Assembly (NCBI RefSeq): GCF_000426705.1
Contig: NZ_AUFW01000007.1
Coordinates: 248,001-312,000 of the forward strand
DNA from: Spirochaeta cellobiosiphila DSM 17781
Lineage (GTDB): Bacteria; Spirochaetota; Spirochaetia; DSM-17781
Direction: 5' to 3'
Length of the DNA stretch: 64,000 nt
How positions within the stretch are numbered: the stretch's first letter is position 1; every line of letters begins with the position of its first letter. Position numbers and translations under genes: made by a program. Below, piece by piece: positions 1-3,658 of this stretch. The notes beneath the pieces are model-generated. The model ran no database searches. It saw only the letters and a list, made by a program, of their open reading frames with translations, and was not told where the DNA came from.

Positions 1-2365
1 CTGCTTTATGCAAGAAATCATGAGTTAACGTTCCTTCTCTATCTAAAAAGCTGGCTCTCAAGGTAATACAACGACCACCTTCTTCAGGTATATAGACATC
101 ATAAATCTTTATATCTACCATTTCTTTAAGTCGTAATTTCTTAGCAGCAGACAATACATCCGCTACGGGAGTATGATCAGAAGCCAAAACAGTACAGTCA
201 AAAGTAGAACCTTGATACTTTGGTAATGGTTGATATTTTGTTTTATCTTTTAAAGGTTGATCCATAAAATCTGTTACATCTAATAATGCCATCACAAGAT
301 TACCCTTGATCTTAAAATTACGGGTCATAAGAGGATGGATGGTTCCAATAAATCCTGCTGTCTTACCCATCACCCTAATATCTAGAAATTCCCTAGGATG
401 CTTACCCATCCAATCAGACGGAACGTGGGGATTAGGGAATTTGGGTTTAGCTTCAGAAATCTGGGCATTCACTCCCATAAAGTTAAGAAGATCATCAAAA
501 AGATTAAGCATTTCCATAAAAGGCGATTCACTTTTCGAATAATAAACGACACCCAACTGATGTCTTTCATTACTAAAGTTCTTTGGATCACTCCAATAAG
601 ATCGGCCTAATTCAAACAAACGGAAAGAAGAATAGTTCTTTTGATTTAAAGCCGCTTTTTCTAATAAGGAAGGAACTAAGGAAGGACGCATCCTATCTAA
701 TTCAGGACTTAAAGCATTCGCTAAGATCAATTCTTCATTGAGGACATGCCAATCTGCATTTTTAAGGAGCTTGGGTCCCACGATAGGATAAGTATAGATC
801 TCTAAAGCACGACCTCTTAATATAAGGAAGTCCTGGATCCGTCTGGCCATCTTTTTGGCAGGGGATAATTCAATAGCCGTTACTTCATTAAAAGGAGCTT
901 TAGGTTGAAGCTTGTCAAATCCATGGATACGGCCTACTTCTTCAATAAGGTCTGCATCAACTTGCACATCCTTTGTGGCCCTAAAGCTTGGAACAGTTAC
1001 CATCAGATTTTCCCCTTCTGTAGTAACTTCAAACTCAAGAGATTCTAGATTCTTTGCTATCTCCTGACTATTTAAGTCTGTCCCTAATACAGAGTTAACC
1101 CTCTTAGGGGATAGTTCAATCTTCAATTCAGGTGTCTTTATAACACCATCAGAGACAATCTGACCGACAACCTTGGCTTCGGGACAGCTTTCAAGAACTA
1201 ATTCCATCACTCTCAAGACGGTACGTTCTAATTGATTTGTATCAAGAGATTTTTCGTAACGTTGACTGGAATCAGTGCGAAGACCTAAACGGGTAGAAGT
1301 ATGTCTGATTCGTACATCAACCCAATTCGCTGCTTCAATAAAGATACGGGAAGTGGTTGGTTTAACACTGCTTGTTAATCCACCCATAATACCTCCAATA
1401 ACGGAGGGACCCTCTGCATCACAAACCATGGTATCGTCCGCAATGATATCCCGTTCCATATCATCCAATGTCGTAAATTTTGTATCCTCACCCATTTTGC
1501 GAACAATAATTTGTCCTCCCCGGATCGTATCCCTATCAAAAATATGATTAGGCTGACCAAGTTCAAGCATGACATAATTACTGATGTCAACAATGTTGCT
1601 AATAGGACGTAAACCACAGGATATTAATCGCTGTTGTATCCATTTTGGACTGTCTTTGACTGTCACATTTTCCATACTCAATCCATAATATCCTACGCAA
1701 GCTGTACCTTCTTTAACAGAAACAGAGACGGGATTTACATCAGAAGTAAAATGAGACTTCATTTTTGCTTCCCATTCCGAGCTAAAAGCTTTCTTCAAGG
1801 GATTACCAAAGACAGCAGAGAATTCTCTAGCCATTCCATAATGTCCCCACAGATCAGGTCGATGGGTAATGGATTTATTATCTATATCAAGAAGGATATC
1901 TGACTGTAATTCCAGATATTCTGACATTGTCTGACCAATAGAAGCTTCATCATTAAGAATGAGAAGACCTTCATGCCCCTCACCTAAGCCTAATTCATCT
2001 TCTGCACAAAGCATTCCTTCACTTAAGATTCCCCTAATCTTTTTAGGCTCTAAAGTGAATCCTCCAGGAAGGGTGGTACCTATAGGAGCAAAAGGAACTT
2101 TCAATCCAACAGCGACATTAGGAGCCCCACAAACAACTCTTTTTTCTCCGTCCTGACATTTAAAGCTAACTAAATTTAACTTATCCGCTTCAGGATGTGG
2201 TTCTATCTTGGTAATTTGGGCCACGGTTACTTTTGCTAAGTGGGCATTTGTCTCTTCTACACCCTCTACTTCACAAGTGGATAAAGTAAATTTGACACCC
2301 AATTCTTCCGGTGTTAAATCAGGAAGAGGGGTGAATTCTTTGATCCAATCTAAACTAATCTTCAT
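1..2365 (-). CDS. pheT: Phenylalanine--tRNA ligase beta subunit (3' end cut by window edge)
   Basis: This is the beta chain of the alpha2-beta2 synthetase that charges tRNA-Phe in the cytoplasm. The minus-strand frame is open from an ATG at 2365 to the window edge, about 788 codons against roughly 800 for the family. The N-terminus reads MKISLDWIKEF and is followed by the tRNA-binding (EMAP-like) segment around residues 40-150, with motifs such as VVCGAPNV and GMLCAEDELGLG. The last visible residues, near REGTLTHD, fit the anticodon-binding FDX-ACB domain, so only a few C-terminal residues are missing. The start is supported by an AGGAG eight bases upstream. It lies 20 nt after pheS and should share the attenuated pheS transcript. 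It is of bacterial type. Confidence 0.95.
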   Translation of the reverse strand, partial: MKISLDWIKEFTPLPDLTPEELGVKFTLSTCEVEGVEETNAHLAKVTVAQITKIEPHPEADKLNLVSFKCQDGEKRVVCGAPNVAVGLKVPFAPIGTTLPGGFTLEPKKIRGILSEGMLCAEDELGLGEGHEGLLILNDEASIGQTMSEYLELQSDILLDIDNKSITHRPDLWGHYGMAREFSAVFGNPLKKAFSSEWEAKMKSHFTSDVNPVSVSVKEGTACVGYYGLSMENVTVKDSPKWIQQRLISCGLRPISNIVDISNYVMLELGQPNHIFDRDTIRGGQIIVRKMGEDTKFTTLDDMERDIIADDTMVCDAEGPSVIGGIMGGLTSSVKPTTSRIFIEAANWVDVRIRHTSTRLGLRTDSSQRYEKSLDTNQLERTVLRVMELVLESCPEAKVVGQIVSDGVIKTPELKIELSPKRVNSVLGTDLNSQEIAKNLESLEFEVTTEGENLMVTVPSFRATKDVQVDADLIEEVGRIHGFDKLQPKAPFNEVTAIELSPAKKMARRIQDFLILRGRALEIYTYPIVGPKLLKNADWHVLNEELILANALSPELDRMRPSLVPSLLEKAALNQKNYSSFRLFELGRSYWSDPKNFSNERHQLGVVYYSKSESPFMEMLNLFDDLLNFMGVNAQISEAKPKFPNPHVPSDWMGKHPREFLDIRVMGKTAGFIGTIHPLMTRNFKIKGNLVMALLDVTDFMDQPLKDKTKYQPLPKYQGSTFDCTVLASDHTPVADVLSAAKKLRLKEMVDIKIYDVYIPEEGGRCITLRASFLDREGTLTHDFLHKA

Positions 2366-2385: not shown

Positions 2386-3432
2386 TTAATATGCTTTGAA
2401 CTGTTCTGAGAACCGAAGGTCCCCTTGGTGAAGGTGGCGTACATCATCAATGTGATATCGCATCATGACAAGACGGTCCACACCGAGCCCCCAGGCAAAC
2501 CCATTCCACTTATGGGGATCAATTCCTCCTGCTTTTAACACATTTGGATGAACCATCCCACAACCCAAAGCTTCTACCCAACCAACTTGTTTACAGACAG
2601 AACAACCTTTGCCACCACAGAGAAGACATTCATAATCTAATTCAAAGCCCGGTTCTACGAAAGGGAAGTATCCAGGACGAAGACGAACATTAATATCCTT
2701 CTTAAAGACTTCCCTAAGTAAAGTTCTTAGAAAGTGGATCATATGAGATACGGAGATATCTTCACCAATCATCATACCTTCAAACTGATGGAAAGCCGCT
2801 TCATGACTGGCATCCAGAGATTCTGAACGGAAGACTTTCCCTGGAGCAACAAATTTAAAGGGAGGATTTTTCTTCTGCTCCATACCCCTAATCTGAATAT
2901 TGGAAGTTTGTGTTCTTAATAAGTGCTTCATATCATTAAACCAGAACGTATCCTGCAAGTCCCTGGCAGGGTGATTAGCAGGAACATTCAAAGCTTCAAA
3001 GTTATAGAACTCCGTTTCTATATGAGGCCCATCCAGGATATCAAAACCCATAGACAGGAAAATATCTTCCAGATCTCTTGTTATTTTTGTTAGAGGATGG
3101 AGACCAGCGGACTGTTGACCTTTATCCTTAACACGTTCAAGCCAACTGATATCCTGCCAGTTTTTTTCCAACTTGGCATTGATTTCACTTAGCTCGATCT
3201 GCTGACTTCGCTTTCCTATGGCTTCTTCCATAGTCTGCTTAACTTCATTAGCTTTAGCTCCAAAGCTCTTTTTCTCTTCAACTGACAGGTCTTTCATCCC
3301 TGACATAAGGCCTTTGAGCTTACCCTTTTTACCAAGGTATTCAGACTTAAATTGAGCCATATCTGGCAGACTATTGACTGAATCAAGGGATTGTTCAAAC
3401 TCATTAAGGACTTCTTGTAATTTATCCAGCAT
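2386..3432 (-). CDS. pheS: Phenylalanine--tRNA ligase alpha subunit
   Basis: This is the catalytic alpha chain of phenylalanyl-tRNA synthetase. An N-terminal coiled coil (about residues 1-90) is followed by the class II core. Visible motifs include FRSESLDASHEAAFHQFEG (motif 2 region), the FPFVEPGFE stretch of the Phe pocket, and the motif 3 segment GLGVDRLVMMRY near the C-terminus. Four cysteines in CLLCGGKGCSVC are typical of many bacterial PheS proteins. I chose the ATG at 3432, which has AAGGAG seven bases upstream, over an earlier in-frame start at 3462. At 348 residues it has normal length. It is the first structural gene of pheST and lies directly behind the attenuator at 3486-3519. 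Confidence 0.96.
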   Translation of the reverse strand: MLDKLQEVLNEFEQSLDSVNSLPDMAQFKSEYLGKKGKLKGLMSGMKDLSVEEKKSFGAKANEVKQTMEEAIGKRSQQIELSEINAKLEKNWQDISWLERVKDKGQQSAGLHPLTKITRDLEDIFLSMGFDILDGPHIETEFYNFEALNVPANHPARDLQDTFWFNDMKHLLRTQTSNIQIRGMEQKKNPPFKFVAPGKVFRSESLDASHEAAFHQFEGMMIGEDISVSHMIHFLRTLLREVFKKDINVRLRPGYFPFVEPGFELDYECLLCGGKGCSVCKQVGWVEALGCGMVHPNVLKAGGIDPHKWNGFAWGLGVDRLVMMRYHIDDVRHLHQGDLRFSEQFKAY

Positions 3433-3485: not shown

Positions 3486-3519
3486 AAAAAAAAAGCGGAC
3501 CCCTTCATCAGGATCCGCT
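3486..3519 (-). terminator. Attenuator terminator in the pheST leader
   Basis: On the minus strand a 9-bp stem, AGCGGATCC with GGGTCCGCT (one G-U pair), closes an 8-nt loop and runs into eight or more T residues, about 55 nt before the pheS start. It sits after a Phe-rich leader ORF. An alternative 8-bp pairing exists between CAGGATTC (3555-3562) and GGATCCTG (3509-3516). It would consume the 5' arm of the terminator and so act as the antiterminator. Confidence 0.88.
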
Positions 3520-3536
3520 GATTTGCCTTAGACTAA

Positions 3537-3620
3537 TTATCTATGGGAAACCCCGAATCCTGTGATTCCGGTAAAGCTAAAAAAGAAAAATAAACCTGTA
3601 AAAAAGATTCTGCTTCCCAT
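3537..3620 (-). CDS. Phe-rich leader peptide of pheST (27 aa)
   Basis: This short ORF begins MGSRIFFTGL and ends GFGVSHR. It has eight Phe codons in 27, including a run of four (residues 11-14) and another at residue 16. Stalling at these codons when charged tRNA-Phe is scarce would cover the CCGGAATC arm just downstream. That frees CAGGATTC to form the antiterminator. Reading on to the stop codon would cover CAGGATTC and allow termination. E. coli pheST is controlled by the same logic. No Shine-Dalgarno is visible. The ATG lies only 10 nt after the -10 box, so it may be translated from a nearly leaderless transcript. Confidence 0.85.
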   Translation of the reverse strand: MGSRIFFTGLFFFFSFTGITGFGVSHR

Positions 3621-3630
3621 AATTGAATTC

Positions 3631-3658
3631 ATTATATTAAGTAACCTCATTCTGTCAA
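3631..3658 (-). promoter_or_regulatory. pheST promoter
   Basis: A consensus -35 (TTGACA, 3653-3658) and a consensus -10 (TATAAT, 3631-3636) are separated by 16 bases on the minus strand. They lie immediately upstream of the leader peptide and 5 bases after the end of the preceding gene. This is one of the best sigma-70 type promoters in the window. Confidence 0.85.

Follow-up and report, generated by a model that had tools for sequence, protein, structure and literature searches.

A candidate leader-peptide attenuator of pheST, with a probably leaderless or nearly leaderless start, in Spirochaeta cellobiosiphila and related spirochaetes

The genes pheS and pheT code for the two subunits of phenylalanyl-tRNA synthetase (PheRS), and the region upstream of them in Spirochaeta cellobiosiphila DSM 17781 raises the question of whether a spirochaete may adjust their expression by way of a short leader peptide. 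The locus lies at one end of the stretch of 64,000 nucleotides analysed here (the window), on its minus strand. A first-pass annotation had read it as a Phe-leader attenuator with 1:2, 2:3 and 3:4 pairing logic, and this reading is supported by the comparison with 29 leaders from the class Spirochaetia. We assign a probability of roughly 0.93 to the view that the leader is a ribosome-mediated transcription attenuator, which ties the expression of pheST to charged tRNA-Phe. Its parts, in the order of transcription, are as follows.

3653..3658, minus strand: -35 box TTGACA, read from the sequence; TTGACA/T/C is kept across leaders
3631..3636, minus strand: -10 box TATAAT, with a 16-nt spacer to the -35 box, from the sequence and relatives
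3621..3630, minus strand: gap of 10 nt (gaattcaatt) between the -10 box and the leader ATG, without a Shine-Dalgarno, from the sequence
3537..3620, minus strand: leader ORF MGSRIFFTGLFFFFSFTGITGFGVSHR, 27 codons, 8 of them Phe, ATG at 3620, from the sequence, relatives and shuffles
3564..3571, minus strand: segment 1 CCGGAATC, immediately downstream of Phe codon 16, where a stalled ribosome would cover it
3555..3562, minus strand: segment 2 CAGGATTC, within the ORF, partner of segment 1 (protector) or segment 3 (antiterminator)
3520..3552, minus strand: bridging hairpin in the antiterminator loop, containing the leader stop codon, a predicted fold
3509..3516, minus strand: segment 3 GGATCCTG, common to the antiterminator and the 5' arm of the terminator
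3494..3519, minus strand: intrinsic terminator hairpin (3:4), 10 bp, computed at -16.9 kcal/mol
3486..3493, minus strand: T-run of the terminator, T8, from the sequence
2386..3432, minus strand: pheS, bacterial-type Phe-tRNA synthetase alpha subunit, with a good Shine-Dalgarno, AAGGAG
1..2365, minus strand: pheT, beta subunit, running past the window start, from direct sequence reading and gene order

The leader promoter matches the sigma-70 consensus at 12 of 12 positions, and no other perfect match occurs in the 3 kb that were scanned. With a start site expected about 7 nt past the -10 box, the 5' UTR would measure about 3-4 nt in the window. The gap between the -10 box and the leader AUG is 8-12 nt in 24 of the 29 leaders and about 6-7 nt in five leaders of genus g74; a range of 6-12 nt in all 29 thus gives an expected 5' UTR of about 0-5 nt. 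No leader has Shine-Dalgarno-like sequence in the 20 nt that precede its AUG (mean pairing about zero; strongest -3.3 kcal/mol, in L056), unlike the pheS starts, of which 28 of 29 have a strong Shine-Dalgarno, averaging about -7.5 kcal/mol. In the window itself, the duplex with the anti-Shine-Dalgarno amounts to +0.4 kcal/mol at the leader AUG versus -8.4 kcal/mol at the pheS start. Since the AUG lies close to the -10 box and lacks a Shine-Dalgarno in all 29 cases, we infer from this anatomy that the mRNA of the pheST leader has little or no 5' UTR. The annotated leader start, 10 nt from the -10 box and without a Shine-Dalgarno, was correct, and the AUG falls near the expected 5' end throughout the set.

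Other conserved genes start in a similar manner, with an ATG 6-12 nt past a consensus promoter. They include ispE-like (L179, L183), PEGA-domain-like (L085, L180, L181) and TPR-like (L178, L186) genes, and the window genome also has a PEGA-domain-like gene and a CarD-like gene (L150) with such spacing between -10 box and ATG; these names come from reading the translations. The start spacing of conserved genes suggests that leaderless mRNAs are commonplace among these organisms.

The consensus promoter and the 27-codon leader with eight Phe codons were confirmed, including their coordinates and codon count. Among 3724 mononucleotide shuffles of the window leader ORF that stayed open, none reached eight or more Phe codons, and in 27 of the 29 leaders the ORF lies in the frame with the most Phe codons. 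Within the pyrimidine runs of these leaders, C occupies codon positions 3, 2 and 1 in 101, 26 and 13 instances, respectively (n=140), and its placement at position 3 points to selection on Phe codons, beyond mere U-richness. The ORF measures 20-29 codons among the relatives and usually passes through segment 2. Both the peptides (examples are MGKRSFFISFFFFFSVTRIEGFGVSQG, MENRNSFNFFSFFFFFIDSETEGRRFSLK, MTGKHFYYDFFSCFFFMKGC, MTGMQGIFFSFFFFFFSTQEGPGLP, MRIPNFFFIYFLNFYFFSGGETPGLS and MKSVIFAFTSFSFFSFFFFFKN) and the helices differ in sequence between genera, while the design is kept. The five leaders of genus g74 (L072-L075, L082) have only 2-5 Phe codons, which counts against the attenuator reading. 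These same leaders exhibit a conserved SVYSxF motif (GTGTATTCG) together with their AUG about 6-7 nt from the -10 box, and possibly represent a differently tuned or arrest-type leader.

The alternative structures proposed by the first-pass annotation were all recovered in the window. The first hairpin, 1:2, pairs CCGGAATC (3571-3564) with GATTCGG (3559-3553) at -7.3 kcal/mol. The antiterminator helix, 2:3, joins CAGGATTC (3562-3555) to GGATCCTG (3516-3509) and, with one further pair, reaches 9 bp without interruption. The terminator, described as carrying a long T-run, has its 10 bp at the energy given above, followed by T8. The whole leader fold has a z of -3.5 versus 200 dinucleotide shuffles. 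Folding of both alternatives, which the annotation had proposed as a check, gave predicted energies for the window sequence of -23.8 kcal/mol for the antiterminator conformer and -26.2 kcal/mol for the terminator conformer; values so close would suit a kinetic switch.

Conservation in relatives had been named beforehand as a test on which the reading could fail, and Phe codons, stop position, pairings and terminator are kept there despite turnover of the sequence. For the 2:3 pairing, the region after the Phe tract was compared in each genome with the 5' arm of the terminator, using dinucleotide shuffles of the segment-2 region; the mean z was -2.4 (n=29), with a shuffle fraction of at most 0.05 in about two thirds. 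Covariation among the eight closest sequences was modest, with one pair changed on both sides and 79.7% of cells paired, although the register of this alignment was supported versus slid versions. An alignment of eight sequences is too shallow to decide the matter, and a swap test across genera was used in its place, in which the best uninterrupted 2:3 helix was sought between a leader's own segments and between segments exchanged between genera. The own helix was better than the between-genus swaps in 22 of 29 leaders, with mean scores of 21.7 versus 16.3. The helices have genus-specific sequences, whose two strands fit each other within a genus, as in CAGGATTCG/CGGATCCTG, GCGAGGGATTCG/CGGATTCCTCGC, GAGGGAGTC/GACTCCCTT, AGGAGGGACCCG/CGGGTTTCTCCT, GGGGAAACCC/GGGTTTCCCC and CCGGAGGAACCC/GGGTTCTTCCGG. 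Segment 2 lies within the ORF or at the leader stop codon in nearly all relatives. In family f23 the helix is only 7-8 bp long and not better than with swapped segments, and no convincing uninterrupted 2:3 helix was found in L051, L059, L062 and L072. Hairpin 1:2 is weak or absent in several relatives (about -1 kcal/mol in L068-L070), and in some other genera it is replaced by a pairing with the Phe tract. A terminator separates the leader ORF from pheS in all 29 genomes. Of these, 28 were detected by the script, and the one that it missed (L060) has the form GCTCCC-TCAA-GGGAGC-A-T8, in which an A precedes the T-run.

These parts may be combined into a mechanism, whose codons, helices and geometry are taken from the comparison and whose dynamics follow the known mechanism of E. 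coli. Transcription from the strong promoter would begin only a few bases ahead of the leader AUG and give a nearly leaderless transcript, and a ribosome would load on its 5'-terminal AUG. When Phe-tRNA is ample, the ribosome would clear the Phe tract and occupy segment 2. As the ORF extends across this segment, a ribosome reaching the stop codon would cover it, so that it could not pair with segment 3, the 3:4 hairpin would form and transcription would end before pheS. When Phe-tRNA is short, the ribosome would stall on the Phe tract, masking segment 1 and leaving segment 2 free; in the window, a stall at Phe codon 16, with that codon in the A site, would have this effect. The free segment 2 would then pair with segment 3, helped by the bridging hairpin, while segment 4 has yet to be transcribed, thereby allowing read-through into pheST. 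Since segments 2 and 3 are made before segment 4, stalling should favour read-through, and a shortage of charged Phe-tRNA should switch pheST on. If the leader were not translated at all, 1:2 and 3:4 would form, with termination as the default.

In a bolder version, which we consider doubtful, the 5'-terminal AUG would itself be a working part. Loading at the nascent 5' end, probably by 70S ribosomes and sensitive to IF3, would time the ribosome relative to the polymerase. It could also make pheST respond, in addition to Phe-tRNA, to conditions that favour the translation of leaderless mRNAs. The terminated leaderless RNA of about 135 nt might act in trans too, in the way that rnTrpL/peTrpL does in Sinorhizobium.

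The distribution of the leader follows that of the synthetase to which it belongs. Bacterial-type PheS was found at E<=1e-60 in 46 of the 395 genomes sampled in the class, that of the window included, and in 29 of these 46 pheS is preceded by the promoter, the Phe-rich ORF and the terminator. No leader was found upstream of pheS in 15, one of which (L008) offers only 260 nt of upstream sequence, and the two others (L067, G150) were not judgeable owing to contig ends. On the PheS tree the leader is confined to one supported clade (97/88), and its presence requires 6 label changes versus a shuffled mean of 24.9, a distribution that a small number of gains and several losses could explain. A class-wide search for the pattern TATAAT-ATG-(Phe)4 recovered the pheST leaders, the other matches being scattered and chance-like in sequence. 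In other classes of the phylum, no Phe-rich leader was found upstream of bacterial PheS at 29 loci, one TTG-start chance ORF aside; the identical scan found, as a positive control, the pheM leader of E. coli (NC_000913.3). A search for leaderless runs of Trp codons found none in the 24 leader-bearing genomes. The corresponding search for His runs in these genomes gave one match, L148 (G067:C538:127816-127865), with four His codons in a run after TATAAT-ATG, which is possibly a leaderless His leader or else a product of chance.

Most genomes of the class contain archaeal-type PheS only, which shows as weak partial matches, and one family (f4) contains both types in different genera. An archaeal-type PheRS has been described for Spirochaeta, Borrelia and Treponema (PMC3191353); the split found here qualifies that published view of archaeal PheRS as a common character of the Spirochaetaceae, and the leader-bearing lineage would be an exception to it. 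The closest named PheS relative of the window, at 88% identity, comes from a Spirochaetaceae MAG (L032). The PheS of two genera of family f24 (L079 and L080, from g100 and g109) groups with clostridial PheS, which suggests a separate transfer, and that of a third f24 genus (L081) has a very long branch and an uncertain placement. Two contigs from MAGs (L033, L034), one labelled Fibrobacter succinogenes and the other 'bacterium', have a PheS that falls inside the spirochaete clade and lack the leader; they represent either a transfer or mis-binned contigs.

Other explanations of the region have to be weighed against attenuation by a leader peptide. It may be a plain terminator which limits readthrough or makes an sRNA, with the U-rich tract as a protein or Hfq/S1 site and the ORF as an incidental feature. 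The nucleotide string AGCTTTTTTTTCTTTTTTAGC, which is much alike in several genera, would suit such a site, yet the tract is spelled differently between genera, C falls at codon position 3 in 101 of 140 instances, and 27 of the 29 leaders have an open ORF frame that holds the most Phe codons. The distance from AUG to -10 box, the position of the stop codon and the geometry of segment 2 are kept as well, and we regard this explanation as very improbable. More remote still is control of pheST by a T-box, through direct sensing of tRNA-Phe, or by a ribosomal-protein leader. Firmicute pheS genes use T-boxes, the upstream regions of related clostridial pheS loci (L040, L041) contain GGTGGTACCACG-like sequence, and the window leader matches the L20_leader family at 26.2 bits. 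That score, however, compares with a gathering score of 58.7 and its alignment rests on the terminator, and nothing in the window reaches the gathering score of any Rfam family. The L20_leader identity was thus rejected as a resemblance between terminators. The T-box identity was likewise rejected: no T-box covariance model matched the leader, either at gathering score or among the below-threshold matches (E<=10), and the leader is too short for one.

A further alternative accepts attenuation but not the leaderless start, and would have a promoter further upstream supply a ribosome binding site. A start site predicted from anatomy would allow such an arrangement, but all 29 leaders have TTGACA-like and TATAAT-like boxes whose spacing to the AUG hardly varies, and the 20 nt before that AUG differ from the pheS starts in having no Shine-Dalgarno-like sequence. 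The genes for ispE and PEGA-domain proteins, moreover, share this spacing, and an upstream promoter appears unlikely. Attenuation from a leaderless or nearly leaderless mRNA remains the preferred reading.

The type of function is known already. According to a genome-wide survey of 2010, leader-peptide attenuation had been known from Proteobacteria and Actinobacteria alone; the survey extended it to the Firmicutes (PMC2965389). For spirochaetes, no report of it was found in the open-access literature. Comparative work also mentions leader-peptide attenuation in a few other phyla.

The closest functional counterparts are the pheST attenuator of E. coli (pheM) and those of other gammaproteobacteria, which share the target operon, a short Phe-rich ORF, the antiterminator/terminator logic and the T-run. 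The ORF of E. coli pheM has 14 codons and follows a 5' UTR with SD-like AAGGTAAC shortly before its AUG, whereas the spirochaete ORF has 20-29 codons and its AUG at the expected 5' end, without a Shine-Dalgarno, and the sequences are unrelated. The spirochaete leader apparently arose separately from the gammaproteobacterial one, and unrelated sequence with the same logic at the same operon is most simply viewed as convergent. The Rfam family Phe_leader (RF01859) is alike in functional type and terminator, but scores only 18.6 bits versus a gathering score of 55, with most pairs of its long consensus helix violated. In its expected start, the leader resembles trpL of Sinorhizobium meliloti (rnTrpL/peTrpL), an attenuator ORF whose AUG is the 5' end of the transcript (PMC7298713), and which differs in its Trp codons, its biosynthetic operon, trpE(G), and its host among the Alphaproteobacteria. 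The mycobacterial polycysteine sORFs (Canestrari 2020), as far as they are described in the papers citing them (PMC9031893, PMC13236596), are also leaderless, with runs of a single codon and an amino-acid-responsive attenuator; they differ in using Cys, in acting on translation of downstream genes and in belonging to the Actinobacteria. With leaderless attenuators known in Sinorhizobium and mycobacteria, the mode of start is known and the setting is new, and the spirochaete leaders, a large set with much natural variation, would serve as leaderless attenuators in which to test how initiation at a 5'-terminal AUG supports the coupling of ribosome and polymerase.
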